Part shown: positions 18,759 through 29,886 of the stretch, in pieces | How the letters are laid out: the number at the start of each line of letters is the position of its first letter | Numbering within the stretch: the stretch's first letter is position 1 | Assembly: GCA_028687545.1 (NCBI GenBank) | Contig: JAQTZZ010000006.1 | Location: 1 to 64,000, forward strand | Direction: 5' to 3' | DNA length: 64,000 bases | From: Candidatus Wallbacteria bacterium | GTDB taxonomy: Bacteria > Muiribacteriota > JAQTZZ01 | Position numbers and translations under genes: made by a program | The notes under the pieces: generated by a model | Database searches by the model: none | What the model saw: only the letters and a program-made list of their open reading frames with translations | What the model was told of the DNA's origin: nothing

Positions 18759-19349
18759 ATGTCTGAAAAAATCCTGATCAAGAAATACGAAAACCGCAGG
18801 TTATACAGCGTGGCGGAAAAGCGCTATGTATCGCTGGAGGAGATCCGGAAGCTAGTGGCTGCAGGGCATGATGTGGAAGTGATTGACCATAAAAGCGGGG
18901 AAGACATCACGCATCAGATCCTGTTCCAGGTGCTGCTTGAGACAGAGAGCGATAAGATTTCCACGCTGCCGGTGTTTTTTCTCAAGTTCCTGATTTCATC
19001 TTCGCCTGCCATGCTGACAGACTATTTCGGGAGCTTCTTCGAAAACCAGCTTTCTCTTTATCAGGGGAACCGCGAGGAATATCAGAGGTTTCTGAACCAG
19101 TTTTCCGAGTCATTCCTGAACTTCAACCCTGGCGCGTTCCCCAATCCCTTCGCTTCCCTGATGAACCAGAATCCATTTTTCACTACAGGGAAAAAATCTA
19201 AACCTGAGCCTGAGAAAAAGCCAGAACCTCCCGCAGAGCCGCTGCCAGCCGATGACGTTGATGATGACGACGATGTGAACGAGTTGCGGGATATGCTTAA
19301 AAAGCTTTCCAAAAAAGTGGACAAGCTGGAAAAGAAGAAGAAGCGATAA
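18759..19349 (+). CDS. phaR: Polyhydroxyalkanoate synthesis regulator PhaR-like
   Basis: 196 residues, GGAG before the ATG. Residues 4-65 (KILIKKYENRRLYSVAEKRY, SLEEIRKLVAAGHDVEVID) are the PHA-accumulation regulator DNA-binding domain, followed by ITHQILFQVLLE. The rest is a linker rich in Pro/Lys/Glu and a C-terminal acidic then lysine coiled coil. In Proteobacteria PhaR binds both PHA granules and the phasin promoter, releasing expression when polymer is made. First gene of the PHA cluster; element A and a terminator separate it from the next gene. Confidence 0.9.
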   Translation: MSEKILIKKYENRRLYSVAEKRYVSLEEIRKLVAAGHDVEVIDHKSGEDITHQILFQVLLETESDKISTLPVFFLKFLISSSPAMLTDYFGSFFENQLSLYQGNREEYQRFLNQFSESFLNFNPGAFPNPFASLMNQNPFFTTGKKSKPEPEKKPEPPAEPLPADDVDDDDDVNELRDMLKKLSKKVDKLEKKKKR

Positions 19350-19372
19350 GAATCGGAAATAAGCCAAATCAT

Positions 19373-19548
19373 CATGCTCACGGAACTGGCTCCTTCGGAG
19401 GAGTTCAAAGGCGTTGTCGAAAACTTTGCTAGAAGCACCAACCCGCTGAGGCTGGCCGAGGCATTCGCAACCGAAGATAAGTGAAGTCCTGCAGCCGGGG
19501 CTGGCTGCAGGACGAAACGACCGGAGAAGGAGCAGTTCTGCGAGCATG
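19373..19548 (+). ncRNA. Structured repeat element, copy A
   Basis: The gap 19350-19763 holds this element and a terminator. The closing stem pairs 19373-19396 with 19526-19548 (about 21 pairs, one bulge, one wobble). Inside, GGAGGAGTTCAAAGGCGTTG near the 5' side and CGAAACGACCGGAG at the 3' side match copies at 22512 and 29724, as does CCGAAGATAAGTG. A second hairpin, TCCTGCAGCC against GGCTGGCTGCAGGA, precedes the 3' conserved block. Closing-stem sequence differs from the other copies while pairing is kept. Strand is assigned from the common orientation of the conserved core. Confidence 0.7.
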
Positions 19549-19617
19549 TATAACTGGAAGTAATTTTCAGGCAAATCCATTTTTCGGAGCATAATTTAAC
19601 CTTGTATTGAGACACGC

Positions 19618-19642
19618 AAAGGCCCTAACCACGGGCCTTTTT
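19618..19642 (+). terminator. Terminator between phaR and phaE-like gene
   Basis: AAAGGCCC, loop TAACCAC, GGGCCTTTTT. It ends the phaR transcript, which includes element A as its 3' untranslated region. Confidence 0.8.
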
Positions 19643-19763
19643 GGATTATGCTGCGATGCGGTATCTGGTAAAATGTCGCAATGCAATAAAATATTCTTGA
19701 CAAACGATTTAATTCCGATAATAATGGAGAAAATGAAATGCTGCGATGCAGCACGGAGGAAAA

Positions 19764-20123
19764 ATGGAAATGATGAAAGACTGGATGGAAACCTGGGAAA
19801 AAAATACGGCAGCCTGGGTGGACGAACTGACTAAGAGCCAGAACTTTGTGAAGAACTATCTGAAGACTTACGAACCGGCTCTGACGGTTTCCAAAAATTT
19901 CAGGGAGACCCAGGAGAAGTTTTATGAACTGACTGGAATTCCTTCCAGAGAGGATATCTTCAGAGTGATGCAGAAACTCCAGGATGTTGAAACAAAGATC
20001 TCTGATGTCTGCGAGAAACTGGACAGCATAGAGGAGAAAATAGTCAGAATCGAAAAGACGGACAGAACCCCGAAAACAGTGAAGAGCACCAAGACCGCAG
20101 GAACCAGCAGGCAGAAAGCCTGA
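19764..20123 (+). CDS. PhaE-like / phasin-like granule protein
   Basis: 119 residues, GGAGG just before the first ATG (two more ATGs lie 2 and 3 codons later). Helical, with WMETWEKNTAAWVDELTKS near the N-terminus and a coiled coil (LQDVETKISDVCEKLDSIEE) before a basic Lys/Thr/Arg tail. The stretch NFRETQEKFYELTGIPSREDI resembles the C-terminal part of PhaE, the non-catalytic subunit of class III PHA synthase, but the protein is far shorter than typical PhaE. Probably needed for PhaC activity or granule attachment. The gene at 22687 encodes a related protein. Confidence 0.65.
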   Translation: MEMMKDWMETWEKNTAAWVDELTKSQNFVKNYLKTYEPALTVSKNFRETQEKFYELTGIPSREDIFRVMQKLQDVETKISDVCEKLDSIEEKIVRIEKTDRTPKTVKSTKTAGTSRQKA

Positions 20124-20139
20124 AATCATAGGAGGAACC

Positions 20140-20427
20140 ATGAAAAACTTTTTCTTCAACAACGAATTCATTGAGCTGAGCAGAAAGAACCTGGATTTCA
20201 CCCTTGACCTGATGAAGAACGGAGCAGAGAGCAATCAGAAGAACGCCAAGAAAATGCTTGAGGAGTATTTCAGCTATCTGACCGGCAACATCGACTTCGT
20301 GACAAAAAACTACCAGGAAGCCCTGAAAACCAATCAGGAAATCGCCACCATCTACCGCGAGAATCTCAACAAAGTATGGGAAATGACAAAAAAGGCCACA
20401 GAGCCGCCCCAGAAGAACGAGAAGTAA
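20140..20427 (+). CDS. Phasin-like small helical protein
   Basis: 95 residues, AGGAGG seven bases before the ATG, 16 bases after the previous gene. Predicted all-helical and amphipathic: FIELSRKNLDFTLDLMKNG, then LTGNIDFVTKNYQEALKTNQ, typical of phasins that coat PHA granules. Charged C-terminus KNEK. Function assigned mainly from context in the PHA cluster. Confidence 0.65.
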   Translation: MKNFFFNNEFIELSRKNLDFTLDLMKNGAESNQKNAKKMLEEYFSYLTGNIDFVTKNYQEALKTNQEIATIYRENLNKVWEMTKKATEPPQKNEK

Positions 20428-20494
20428 AAAATCAGGTGAAAGCGGAGGCCGGGATCTCCCAGCCTCTGCTGACACCTCCAGAAAGAAGGACCAG

Positions 20495-21625
20495 ATGGAT
20501 CCAAAAGAAAAAAATCTTGAAGCGCACCTGGACCAGTGTTTTCTGGCAGGCAAAGGGCTGCTGGAGCACATCGCAAAATGGAAGATCGACAATCTGTCTG
20601 AAATTAAGGACTGCTGCACAAAATCTGCCGGAAATGACCCACACACCGGTACTGGACTGCTTTATGAAACACCGAATTCGACAATTTACAGGGAAGGGAC
20701 TTTCCGTCTTCTCAAATACAACCCAAACCCCAGACTCTCTACCCCCCTTCTAATTGTCCCTTCCCTGATTAACAGATATTACATCCTGGATCTGATGCAG
20801 GGTAATTCGCTGATCGAGTACCTGACACAGGCTGGATTCTCCGTCTATCTTCTGGACTGGGGAATCCCGGGCAGAGAACAGGATCATCTCAGTTTCGAGC
20901 ATTACATCAATAAATGGATCAGAAGGGCAGTCACCCAGGTGCTCAGAGATTCCGGCGAGCCGTCCTGCGCTTTGCTTGGATACTGCATGGGAGGCACCAT
21001 GGCTGCCTGTTACGCGGCAGCAGACCAGAAGCGCATCAATGCCCTGATCTCACTGGCAGCGCCCTATGATTTCTCCGGCGACGATCCGCTTTCCCTGCTG
21101 GCGAGGAACATGGATCTGGACAAACTCGTGGATAGCAGAGGATACATTCCGGCCGAACTTCTGCAGGCCGGGTTTCTGATGGCTCAGCCTCTATCTCCGC
21201 TGCAGAAAGCCAGATCGCTCTATGACAACAATGACGATGCCAGGAAAAATGATGTATTCCTGCACCTGGAGCGCTGGCTGTCGGACAATGTGCCTTTTCC
21301 CAAGGAAGCCTACCGTCAGTATATAAGGGAATTTTACCGGGAAAACAATCTGATTTCCGGGAAATTCAGCCTGAATGGCAGGAAAATCAAATTGTCGGAC
21401 ATTAAAGCCCCAGTGCTTTCCGTGATCGCGACCCGCGATTCCATAGTGCCGGCTAAGGCTTCGCTTGCTTTGAACGAAGCTGTTTCAGGCACTGCCGAAA
21501 CCATCGAGATCGACGCCGGCCATATCGGGATCGTGATGGGCAGGAAGGCGAAGGAAGCGTGGATGGGAATGACGATGTGGCTGACAAAAGCCTGGGAGAA
21601 AGGTTCGAGGTACAATCCAGGATAA
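20495..21625 (+). CDS. phaC: Class III poly(3-hydroxyalkanoate) synthase catalytic subunit
   Basis: 376 residues, the usual size of class III PhaC. The lipase-like box is LGYCMGG with nucleophile Cys164, the acid is Asp in ATRDSIVPAK and the His is in DAGHIGIVMG. LLIVPSLINRYYILDL is a PhaC hallmark. It joins (R)-3-hydroxyacyl-CoA units into polyester at the granule surface and normally needs PhaE. Ribosome site GAAGGA. About 70 residues at the N-terminus are divergent. Two tandem hairpins separate it from phaB. Confidence 0.93.
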   Translation: MDPKEKNLEAHLDQCFLAGKGLLEHIAKWKIDNLSEIKDCCTKSAGNDPHTGTGLLYETPNSTIYREGTFRLLKYNPNPRLSTPLLIVPSLINRYYILDLMQGNSLIEYLTQAGFSVYLLDWGIPGREQDHLSFEHYINKWIRRAVTQVLRDSGEPSCALLGYCMGGTMAACYAAADQKRINALISLAAPYDFSGDDPLSLLARNMDLDKLVDSRGYIPAELLQAGFLMAQPLSPLQKARSLYDNNDDARKNDVFLHLERWLSDNVPFPKEAYRQYIREFYRENNLISGKFSLNGRKIKLSDIKAPVLSVIATRDSIVPAKASLALNEAVSGTAETIEIDAGHIGIVMGRKAKEAWMGMTMWLTKAWEKGSRYNPG

Positions 21626-21636
21626 ATGATCCATAG

Positions 21637-21675
21637 GGGCAAGGCTCGCCCTTGCCCGTCCGACGAATGTCGGAC
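21637..21675. repeat. Tandem hairpins between phaC and phaB
   Basis: GGGCAAGG/CCTTGCCC (21637-21657) directly followed by GTCCGAC/GTCGGAC (21658-21675). No T-run, so they may be attenuator or mRNA-processing hairpins rather than a terminator; phaB keeps its own ribosome site. Confidence 0.5.
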
Positions 21676-21712
21676 CTGTGCATAACCAAACCAAAACATC
21701 CAGGAGGATAAC

Positions 21713-22453
21713 ATGAGATTGAAAGACAAGACCGCCATCATCACAGGAGGAGCCCGCGGAATCGGAAAAGCGATTGCTGCCACATTTCTGCGCGAAGGCG
21801 CGAAAGTTGCCATCTTCGACCTTAATGAGGCCGATGCTAATGCCTTCAAACAGGAATTCCCGCAGTATGCGGACAGGATTCATTTCGAGCAGGTGAATGT
21901 TACGGAATATCCGTTAATGGAACAGGCGGTTGGGCGCGTGATCAGCAAATACGGGGCAGTCGACGTGATGATCTGCAATGCAGGTATCACCAGGGACGCC
22001 ATGACCCATAAGATGACCGAAGATCAGTTTGACCTGGTAGTGGACGTGAATCTCAAGGGAGCCTATAATTCCGCGAGGTCAGTCGTGGACAAGATGAGAG
22101 ATCAGAATCGCGGCAAGATCATTTTCACTTCATCCGTGGTCGGCGAATACGGCAATGTCGGACAGGCCAATTACGCGGCAAGCAAAGCCGGGATCATCGG
22201 CATGGCCAAATCCATGGCCAAGGAACTGGCCAGGAAGAATGTCTGTGTGAACGTGGTGGCTCCTGGCTACACCAACACTGAAATGATGAAGACTGTTCCT
22301 GAGAAGGTTCTCTCAGGGATCAGGGATAAAACTCCGATGGGTCGTCTGGCAGAGCCGGACGAGATCGCCAACGCCTTTTTATTCTTGGCATCCGACGAGT
22401 CGAACTATATTACCGGGCACGTTCTTTCAGTAAACGGCGGGCTGACACTGTAA
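21713..22453 (+). CDS. phaB: Acetoacetyl-CoA / 3-oxoacyl-ACP reductase (SDR)
   Basis: 246 residues, AGGAGG before the ATG. Classical short-chain dehydrogenase: NADP-binding TGGARGIGKA, CNAGITRD, catalytic Ser in SSVVGEYG and Tyr/Lys in YAASKAG, end SVNGGLTL. By sequence it could equally be FabG; its place between phaC and the second granule-gene pair favours the PhaB role of making (R)-3-hydroxybutyryl-CoA. No thiolase (phaA) is in the window, so that step is encoded elsewhere. Confidence 0.9.
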   Translation: MRLKDKTAIITGGARGIGKAIAATFLREGAKVAIFDLNEADANAFKQEFPQYADRIHFEQVNVTEYPLMEQAVGRVISKYGAVDVMICNAGITRDAMTHKMTEDQFDLVVDVNLKGAYNSARSVVDKMRDQNRGKIIFTSSVVGEYGNVGQANYAASKAGIIGMAKSMAKELARKNVCVNVVAPGYTNTEMMKTVPEKVLSGIRDKTPMGRLAEPDEIANAFLFLASDESNYITGHVLSVNGGLTL

Positions 22454-22472
22454 TTCAGAACGATTTTGATAC

Positions 22473-22505
22473 AGGTACACTCGACCGAGTGTACCTGCTT
22501 TTTAG
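22473..22505 (+). terminator. Terminator after phaB
   Basis: AGGTACACTCG then CGAGTGTACCT around a tight loop, followed by GCTTTTTAG. An 11-bp arm pair, just upstream of element B. Confidence 0.7.
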
Positions 22506-22511
22506 TAATGA

Positions 22512-22632
22512 ATATAAGCTATGGACTGATTCCTGCGGAGGCGTTCAAAGGCGTTGCTGAATATCCTGTATGAGGCAGAATCAAGTTCGCAGCCGAAGAC
22601 AGCCACAGCAGGATTCAGTCCATAGTTTATGT
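22512..22632 (+). ncRNA. Structured repeat element, copy B (short form)
   Basis: Closing stem 22512-22536 with 22608-22632: 25 positions, 24 paired counting two G-T wobbles. Inside, TCCTGCGGAGGCGTTCAAAG and GGCGTTGCTGAA, GAATCA and GCAGCCGAAGA match copies A and C. It lacks the second hairpin and the ACGACCGGAG block of A and C, so the 3' half is deleted or this is a minimal form. It ends 54 bases before the ATG of the next granule gene and could sit in its 5' leader. Confidence 0.7.
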
Positions 22633-22686
22633 GGCTTTCTGAGAAAAACAAAAAATGATAGAATTGAATTAAAAAAGGAAAAATCG

Positions 22687-23082
22687 ATGTTCAATCCGAT
22701 GTTAGATGAATTCCAGAAGCAATGGGAAAAAATGATGCTGGAGTGGTTTGAGAAGACCATGAACAGCCCTGAATTCCTGAAATCCATGGGAAATTCATTC
22801 GAAGGGGCGTTCAATTCCAAGGCAGTACTTGATGAATGCAAGGCCAGGATGCTGAAATCCATGTCCCTGCCCAGCGAAGAATCAATCGGCAAGCTGGGAA
22901 CATACATTTTGCGGATGGATTCAAAGCTTCTGGATCTCGAGGACAGACTGGAAGAACTGAAGCAGGATCTTGTGGAAGTGAAAAGATTGGTGAGACCGGA
23001 AAAGCAACCCTGTCCGGCCAGATCCGCCGGAAATTCTAAAACATCAGCCAAGACCAGGAAAGCGAGCCGAAAAAATGCCTGA
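22687..23082 (+). CDS. PhaE-like / phasin-like granule protein, second copy
   Basis: 131 residues from the ATG at 22687 (AAGGA upstream); longer in-frame starts run into element B. Pattern parallels the protein at 19764: MLDEFQKQWEKMMLEWFEKT, then LPSEESIGKLGTYILRMDSK, a coiled coil LEDRLEELKQDLVEVKRL and a basic Ser/Lys/Arg tail. The last 8 bases overlap the start of the second phaC, so the two form a coupled pair, like phaE-phaC. Confidence 0.6.
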   Translation: MFNPMLDEFQKQWEKMMLEWFEKTMNSPEFLKSMGNSFEGAFNSKAVLDECKARMLKSMSLPSEESIGKLGTYILRMDSKLLDLEDRLEELKQDLVEVKRLVRPEKQPCPARSAGNSKTSAKTRKASRKNA

Positions 23083-24157
23083 AATCCAGCTGGAAGAACT
23101 GCAGAAAAAATGCAATGATTTCTGGAAAGTGCTGGCTGCCTGCAATTATTCAAACGATGCCGAAAAGGAGAAAGCTTTCTGTGAGCTCGGGATCAGCCCG
23201 ACACCCAGGAAAACTCTCTATCAGGAAAACAGCCTCTGCGTGTATCATTATGAATCTCTTAATCCCACCGGGCTTCCGCTCTTGATCGTACCGTCGCTCA
23301 TCAACCGAAACTATATTCTGGACCTGCTGTCCGGGCACAGCGTGATTCAGGCCCTGGTCAATTCGGGAGTTTCCTGCTACCTGATCGACTGGGGCACTCC
23401 AGGAGTGGAACATGCTGAAATCACGCTTGACGACTATCTCGACACATATATCCACAGGGCAGTGAAAAGGGTTTTGAGGCATTCGGGCAAGTCCAGGCTG
23501 CATCTGATGGGACAATGCATCGGCGGGATCATGGCTTCAATTTATGCAGCCAAGTATAGTAAAGACAGCCTGCTGGCTTCCCTGACTCTGCTGACAACAC
23601 CTATAAACATGGAACATGGAGGCAAACTCTCGCTCTGGATGGATCCGAGACATTTCAACCTGGACTTGACAATCAATTCCTTCAAGCGGCAGGGATTTGT
23701 TCCGCCTGAAGTCCTGCACTCAGGGTTTCCCTTTCTGGACGTGAAAATGATGTTTGATAAATACAGGAATCTGTTCAATTTTTCCGATAACGCGGCTTTT
23801 GTGCAGCTTTATCGAGCCCTGGACTTCTGGTCACGGGACAACGTACCCTTCCCCTGCGAAGTATTGAGGAAGTTTATCCGTGAAATCTACCAGAAAAACA
23901 GCTTTTACCATGAACAGATGGAAATCGGGGGGCAGAAAACCGGTCCATCCTTTATCAATATACCTGTGCACAACCTGATTGCCAGATACGATCATGTGAT
24001 GCCTGTAGAAGCTTCAGCAGGCTGGCGCAAAAATGGTCATCCCAAAGACCGGGAAACAATTTATGACGGCGGGCATGTCACGATCATCGCCGGACTGCCG
24101 CTGAGATTCCAGGTCTATCAGGATCTGGTCGGGTTTTTCAAGACAACAGGTGATTGA
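23075..24157 (+). CDS. Second class III PHA synthase-like protein
   Basis: 360 residues. Keeps the full catalytic set: nucleophile Cys148 in MGQCIGG, acid in IARYDHVMP, His in DGGHVTIIAG, and the family stretch LLIVPSLINRNYILDL. It is a diverged paralogue of the protein at 20495, so the organism has two synthases with separate small partners; different chain-length specificity or different granule populations are possible. Start overlaps the partner gene by 8 bases. Confidence 0.88.
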   Translation: MPEIQLEELQKKCNDFWKVLAACNYSNDAEKEKAFCELGISPTPRKTLYQENSLCVYHYESLNPTGLPLLIVPSLINRNYILDLLSGHSVIQALVNSGVSCYLIDWGTPGVEHAEITLDDYLDTYIHRAVKRVLRHSGKSRLHLMGQCIGGIMASIYAAKYSKDSLLASLTLLTTPINMEHGGKLSLWMDPRHFNLDLTINSFKRQGFVPPEVLHSGFPFLDVKMMFDKYRNLFNFSDNAAFVQLYRALDFWSRDNVPFPCEVLRKFIREIYQKNSFYHEQMEIGGQKTGPSFINIPVHNLIARYDHVMPVEASAGWRKNGHPKDRETIYDGGHVTIIAGLPLRFQVYQDLVGFFKTTGD

Positions 24158-29642: not shown

Positions 29643-29723
29643 CAGAGTTTTAATGCAGGGACAGTGCTGGAAAAAGCGTTTAAGTGACCGGTTAAGCCAA
29701 CTGGCCATATGATGATTCAATTA

Positions 29724-29886
29724 AACTAAGGAATTGTTCCTGCGGAGGAGTTCAAGGCGTCGCTGAAGCCTTGCTATTGGTAGAATCACACCGAAGCAAG
29801 TTGCTGAGGTGGTCACAGCCGCCGATAAGTGTAGCTGGCACAAGAAGTGCCAGCGGAACGACCGGAGCAGGAATAATTCCTTAGTT
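29724..29886 (+). ncRNA. Structured repeat element, copy C
   Basis: The gene-free stretch 29585-29887 holds the ModE promoter and this element. Closing stem 29724-29743 with 29867-29886: 20 of 20 positions pair (one G-T). Inside, TCCTGCGGAGGAGTTCAAGG, CGTCGCTGAA, AGAATCA, GCCGATAAGTGTAG, a hairpin GCTGGCAC-AAGA-AGTGCCAGC, then GGAACGACCGGAGCAGGAA. Same core as copies A and B; the outer stem sequence is different but still paired. It lies antisense to its minus-strand neighbours and ends one base before the xdhC stop codon. Confidence 0.75.

Follow-up and report, generated by a model that had tools for sequence, protein, structure and literature searches.

A small dispersed repeat with covarying stems, probably mobile, in a bacterial genome and its nearest sequenced relative

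The hairpin at the locus studied here is one of three in a 64,000-nucleotide stretch of DNA (the window), each with a shared core closed by a long stem, which raises the question of whether it is a structured RNA, as a preliminary description proposed, or a repeat of another kind. We find that it is a small dispersed repeat, probably mobile, seen so far only in the genome of the window (G000) and in its nearest sequenced relative (G001), the sole other genome of the same family among 39 genomes of the phylum. All three window copies lie where the preliminary description had placed them, with the closing stems given in Table 1, and all contain TCCTKCGGAGG. CCGAAGA or CCGATAAG is likewise present in all three and ACGACCGGAG in two. 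The block GTTCAAAGGCGTTG, described as shared, is exact in two of the copies, but the copy at 29.7 kb has GTTCAAGGCGTCG, one A short.

Table 1. Positions in the window of the three copies of the element and of the parts of copy 3.
Feature	Positions	Strand	Basis	Remarks
Copy 1	19373-19548	+		Type A, with P3 hairpin; P1 arms 19373-19396 and 19526-19548
Copy 2	22516-22628	+		Type B, short form without P3; P1 arms 22516-22536 and 22608-22628
Copy 3	29724-29886	+		Type A; the copy named in the preliminary finding
Copy 3, P1 5' arm	29724-29743	+	sequence	Partner 29867-29886
Copy 3, conserved core, 5' strand (GGAGGAGTTCAAGGCG)	29744-29759	+
Copy 3, P2a hairpin CACC-GAA-GC-loop-GC-TGA-GGTG	29789-29811	+	sequence	Helices 5 and 6 of the covariation test
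Copy 3, conserved core, 3' strand (GCCGCCGATAAG)	29818-29829	+		Pairing with 5' strand weakly supported (helices 3 and 4)
Copy 3, P3 hairpin GCTGGCAC-AAGAA-GTGCCAGC	29834-29854	+	sequence	Helix 7; 7 of 8 pairs with double changes
Copy 3, conserved GAACGACCGGA preceding the 3' arm	29856-29866	+
Copy 3, P1 3' arm	29867-29886	+		Partner 29724-29743

Searching the 39 phylum genomes with models built from the copies gave a family of at least 22 members, 12 in G000 and 10 in G001, which span two genera and range from 112 to 222 nt in length. The G000 total was raised to 12 by a DNA search, two pattern searches and model R1, which was built from six copies that are themselves among its 12 matches in that genome; with E values from 1.3e-38 to 5.6e-7, these matches indicate that the family is not a product of chance. 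R1 found eight copies in G001, and a second model, R2, built from 20 copies (12 from G000 and eight from G001), found ten there and left the G000 count unchanged, with a lowest accepted score of 38.3 bits. The two scans scored at most 72 or 75 first-look candidates of each genome, which makes 22 a minimum and limits absence elsewhere to the candidates scored. Among those candidates, the other 37 phylum genomes gave one weak match, in coding sequence of G022 (32.0 bits, E 4e-4; E 0.016 with R1), which was left out of the count since it falls within long open frames on both strands. Also left out was the antisense match at C77, the same element read backwards.

The core pattern also occurs at 24 other genome-contig loci and one viral locus. 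Because 24 of these 25 loci lie in an open frame of at least 100 codons and their longest exact arm complement is 9 nt, we read them as chance occurrences. When R2 was run on five of them, three had no match, and L058 and L063 scored 17.4-19.4 bits, below the accepted minimum, with one match at the L063 pattern site. A second viral pattern gave zero matches, as did a comparison of one copy with phages and plasmids, and a 1-mismatch site in G024 (L031; 35 relatives searched) had no R2 match. No Rfam covariance model matched at its gathering score; two sub-threshold overlaps were seen, of ivy-DE with copy 3 (26.3 bits versus 41.4, E 0.63) and of isrG with C77 (15.3 bits versus 100, E 1.7). The family thus lies outside Rfam, none of whose members fits, as had been supposed, and we found no description of it in the literature searched, which left out most subscription journals.

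The element consists of a closing stem of ~20 bp, P1, around a conserved core that reads about GGCGnUCnnAGGCGUUGC on its 5' side and about GCAGCCGARGA on its 3' side. Some G000 copies have the core GUUCAAAGGCGUUGC opposite GCAGCCGAAGAUA, and the G001 copy L086 has GAUCGGAGGCGUUGC opposite GCAGCCGAGGA. An inner hairpin with symmetric purine loops, P2a, occurs in about half of the copies and a P3 hairpin in most of them (type A), with GGAUG in the P3 loop of eight of the ten G001 copies (by reading); the P3 stem of copy 3 is unlike those of the other G000 copies in sequence. A further small hairpin, P2b, is a by-eye observation only. An extra hairpin, module X, is carried at varying places by C66, C77 and both C7 copies, and a search beyond these four elements returned one 2-mismatch site in each of G000 and G001, neither with an R2 match. 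A longer copy of 208 nt, L112 (G001:C37:701-908), bears an inner hairpin insert seemingly unlike the module X of G000, which suggests nested gain of modules. A GGA/GGA internal loop was considered as an essential motif and dropped, as pairing at this point is possible in C66 and in L082 and L086 of G001 (by reading).

All 22 copies fold more stably than their own dinucleotide shuffles (Z -2.7 to -11.0). In an alignment of 20 rows and 43 named pairs, with C66 entered without its P1 arms, standard pairs fill 91.7% of cells, compared to 71.2% in shuffles and 30.5-42.4% in slid versions, and the covariation score of the whole structure is 0.389, compared to 0.113 in shuffles and at most 0.085 in slid versions, placing it above all 500 shuffles and all slid controls. 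In P1, 94.4% of stem cells pair and 17 of 19 pairs show double changes, as do seven of eight pairs in P3 and four of six in P2a. Support is weak for core helices 3 and 4, in which 80.6% and 74.2% of cells pair and one of eight pairs shows a double change, and RNAalifold, unaided, returned only P1 and two further pairs (double changes in 19 of 22). The check that the preliminary description had proposed, building a model from the copies and searching the genome and its relatives with it, yielded both more copies and covarying pairs in P1, P2a and P3.

The alignment was fitted to P1 and P3, and a check of the arms at fixed register is free of such fitting. Of the 12 copies in G000, 10 to 12 are paired at each of arm positions 1-19 and nine at positions 20-21, while from position 22 at most eight pair, falling to background; pairwise identity is 0.32-1.0 over arm positions 7-19 and about 0.25 past the stem. 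In the ten G001 copies, seven to ten pair up to position 21 and four at position 22, with weaker arm similarity than in G000. Since arm similarity and pairing end together in G000, and more weakly in G001, the stem is part of the element, with a sequence that drifts while pairing is kept. The near-complete pairing of the outer arms is therefore as first described, but their sequences are not wholly unrelated, being more similar than background among the 12 G000 copies.

Around the copies, gene calls are longest open frames, most of them checked with Pfam, and at least six tested flanking frames had no Pfam match. The neighbours are unrelated to one another, among them a PHA regulator, a short-chain dehydrogenase, XdhC, an Era-like GTPase, TrpD/TrpC-type enzymes, RecO and fumarase. 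By count, six copies lie between convergent genes, 15 between tandem genes (nine sense and six antisense, the fumB copy included) and one inside a gene, and no divergent pair clearly flanks a copy; a stop codon lies at most 40 nt away, measured from the model match, in 17 of 22. Two copies fall inside a PHA (polyhydroxyalkanoate) locus at 18759-24157 of the window, which comprises a PhaR-type regulator (Pfam), a short-chain dehydrogenase, two PhaC-like hydrolases (by eye) and small phasin- or PhaE-like genes. Another copy adjoins a gene for a 92-aa RRM-domain RNA-binding protein (L072:1794-2072, G000:C23).

Two loci bear on mobility. In G001:C445, a copy of 138 nt (46 codons) is open in frame inside a gene for a polytopic membrane protein, and the paralogues on C339 and C100 of the same genome align on both sides of it, lack the element and are 51 residues shorter there. 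The element explains 46 of these 51 residues, and five lie beyond it; the C445 gene, C-terminally shorter than its paralogues, may be decaying. The second locus is fumB, whose homologues in the two genomes (54% identical over 161 aa) have the element on different sides: it lies 34 nt downstream of the gene in G000 and on the 5' side in G001, a genome whose fumB has no element on the other side within the 143 nt examined. In G001 (C31) the copy stands between fumA and fumB, and a frame stays open from an ATG upstream of it through to the fumarase match. However, the early part of that match has a TTG (aa 80) and an ATG (aa 87) downstream of the element, so translation could begin at either and this copy is only possibly intragenic, leaving one clear (C445) and one possible (fumB) intragenic copy of 22.

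Because copies stand beside unrelated genes in both orientations, with one inserted in frame, a mobile palindromic element whose fold is maintained is the better reading of the family. The different places of copies in G000 and G001, the paralogues without the insert and covariation far above both controls agree with this. We assign a probability of about 0.65 to a non-autonomous dispersed palindromic element, confined in the searched data to one bacterial family and presumably moved by an enzyme in trans that recognises the folded strand. Such an element would have reached intergenic places unrelated to one another and, in at least one case, entered a gene in frame, and we infer that the enzyme would recognise the folded single strand (ssDNA or RNA) by its shape and not by its end sequence. 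Systems acting on single-stranded hairpins exist, and it is by analogy with them that we propose recognition of a folded strand. Recognition by shape would let stem sequences drift with pairing kept, and part of the covariation may come from template switching that corrects one arm from the other. A tentative extension, which we consider doubtful, is that the family represents an undescribed class of transposition in which mobility is signalled by the shape that one strand (ssDNA or RNA) folds into rather than by end sequence.

Several observations count against a mobile element. The flanks of the 12 G000 copies show no consistent direct repeats indicative of target-site duplication: the best shared match is 2 nt in six of the 12 and falls within the stem, being the GC of arm positions 18-19, and the longest repeat of any copy is 6 nt. 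No autonomous relative was found, all ten sites with the 5' motif (at most three mismatches) being short elements, and R2 matched nothing in the ~1.7 kb around the two Y1-transposase genes examined, one being the sole Y1 match of G000 and the other one of seven in G001. The ends are less conserved than the core, unlike those of ordinary MITEs, and near-perfect stems in divergent copies suggest upkeep in place, unlike a dead insertion. The C445 insert, five residues too long and in a possibly decaying gene, the weakly supported core pairs and the sparse fold returned by unaided RNAalifold weigh in the same direction, as do the strand signals. P1 mispairs on the sense strand comprise 26 G-U versus 6 A-C (p = 0.0005), but the excess is 14:6 (p = 0.12) after collapse by column and type. 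The sense strand is the more stable fold in 18 of 22 copies, with a bias not significantly different from that of shuffles (mean -5.3 versus -3.6 kcal/mol, paired p = 0.17), so that a strand-specific fold is suggested at most. A minus-strand open frame is kept in 18 of 22 copies, compared to 12.9 in dinucleotide shuffles (29 versus 17.2 such frames overall); we claim no peptide, as the copies are related and these frames differ between them.

The main functional rival to a mobile element is a cis-acting, REP/BIME-like RNA at gene ends, whose stem in either orientation would protect mRNA 3' ends or limit read-through, and which, having once spread, would now be selected in place. The closeness of most copies to a stop codon, the six between convergent genes with none clearly between divergent ones, and stems that stay near perfect despite sequence drift all favor such a role. 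However, the core is asymmetric and yet tandem-gene copies occur in both orientations, copies are found between trpD and trpC and inside one gene, and copy 2 follows a terminator-like site (22472-22497), where a need for it in termination is not obvious. The copies may nonetheless act as RNA, alone or in cis, and we rate the cis-acting account as unlikely. We find it rather improbable that the stem covariation is mainly mutational, arising from template switching in replication that rewrites one arm from the other. Passages of PMC8794818 report that template switching creates and maintains stems, and the long arms here would be suitable substrates, but the arms are about 70-180 nt apart, the separate helices P1, P2a and P3 all covary, and G-U mispairs outnumber A-C, which is unexpected from unbiased correction although the excess is weak once collapsed.

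It is quite improbable that the copies are trans-acting structured RNA genes with many paralogues. The conserved core and compensatory stem change on which the preliminary description based its structured-RNA reading stand and extend to a second genome, and the covarying helices and one-strand G-U excess would suit RNA genes; the scattered copies, many of them abutting stop codons and one in frame inside a gene, do not. Nor did the three window copies have a consistent promoter (15 sigma-70-like sites versus 10.7 in shuffles). A weak sigma-70-like site (9/12) at 29684-29713 of the window ends 11 nt upstream of copy 3. The GGA loops, together with the ACAGGAUGU loop of the G001 copy L086, had hinted at a CsrA sponge, an idea rejected because neither G000 nor G001 has a CsrA match, such matches being present in 31 of the 39 phylum genomes and missing from these two and six others. 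That a core element entered palindromes (the alternative raised in the preliminary description) or terminators that were already there is very improbable, and we reject this: the outer arms look unrelated in the three-copy view only, the 12 G000 arms are alike to about the point where pairing ends (G001 agreeing more weakly), so that the stems end with the element's own similarity, and no T run follows the 3' arm in those 12 copies (by reading). An orphan guide RNA of OMEGA/HEARO type, belonging to an IscB or TnpB transposon, would also be a long structured element of similar size at many places, but is extremely improbable given zero HEARO matches at gathering or relaxed thresholds and no IscB or TnpB among the neighbours with Pfam matches.

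Compensatory change is usually regarded as strong evidence for a functional RNA, and here it occurs in a dispersed, apparently mobile repeat. The family therefore offers a test of whether mobility based on shape recognition, or template switching, can produce covariation like that of RNA genes, and provides a further example of a palindromic repeat in frame in a bacterial protein gene.

Among known repeats, the BOX elements of pneumococcus have a modular build, and the element resembles them by description in adding optional inner modules, P3 and module X, to constant parts, but its constant part is the inner core and not end boxes. Passages of PMC3733652 describe REPs as repeats of 20-40 bp with a GTAG or CGTC tag, the GTAG repeats often near a RAYT gene, and report G-T pairs in REP stems that are taken as a hint of RNA function. 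Like REPs and BIMEs, the copies are intergenic palindromes, but they measure 110-220 nt, have several helices and lie away from the two Y1-transposase genes examined. With MITEs (bcr1, ERIC, RUP, NEMIS) the element shares its short length, intergenic placement, foldability and lack of a transposase gene. MITEs have terminal repeats of 15-30 bp, according to the same passages (PMC3733652), and direct repeats, whereas here the ends are least conserved and neither a duplication nor a parent transposon was found; the inverted repeats at MITE ends are conserved and have counterparts in an autonomous transposon, but the arms here vary in sequence. As portrayed in passages of the sources cited, none of the RPE, MITE, REP, bcr (PMC3446304) and stem-loop (PMC2267715) families matches all of the defining features. 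Rickettsia palindromic elements (RPE) are ~150-bp dispersed palindromes, some of them in frame in protein genes, in passages of PMC10969869 and PMC3733652, and a dispersed palindrome with an in-frame intragenic copy is found here too, a likeness drawn from description. Nearly half of RPE are intragenic, compared to one clear and one possible copy of 22 here, and, in a further difference from RPE, the stems of the present family covary.
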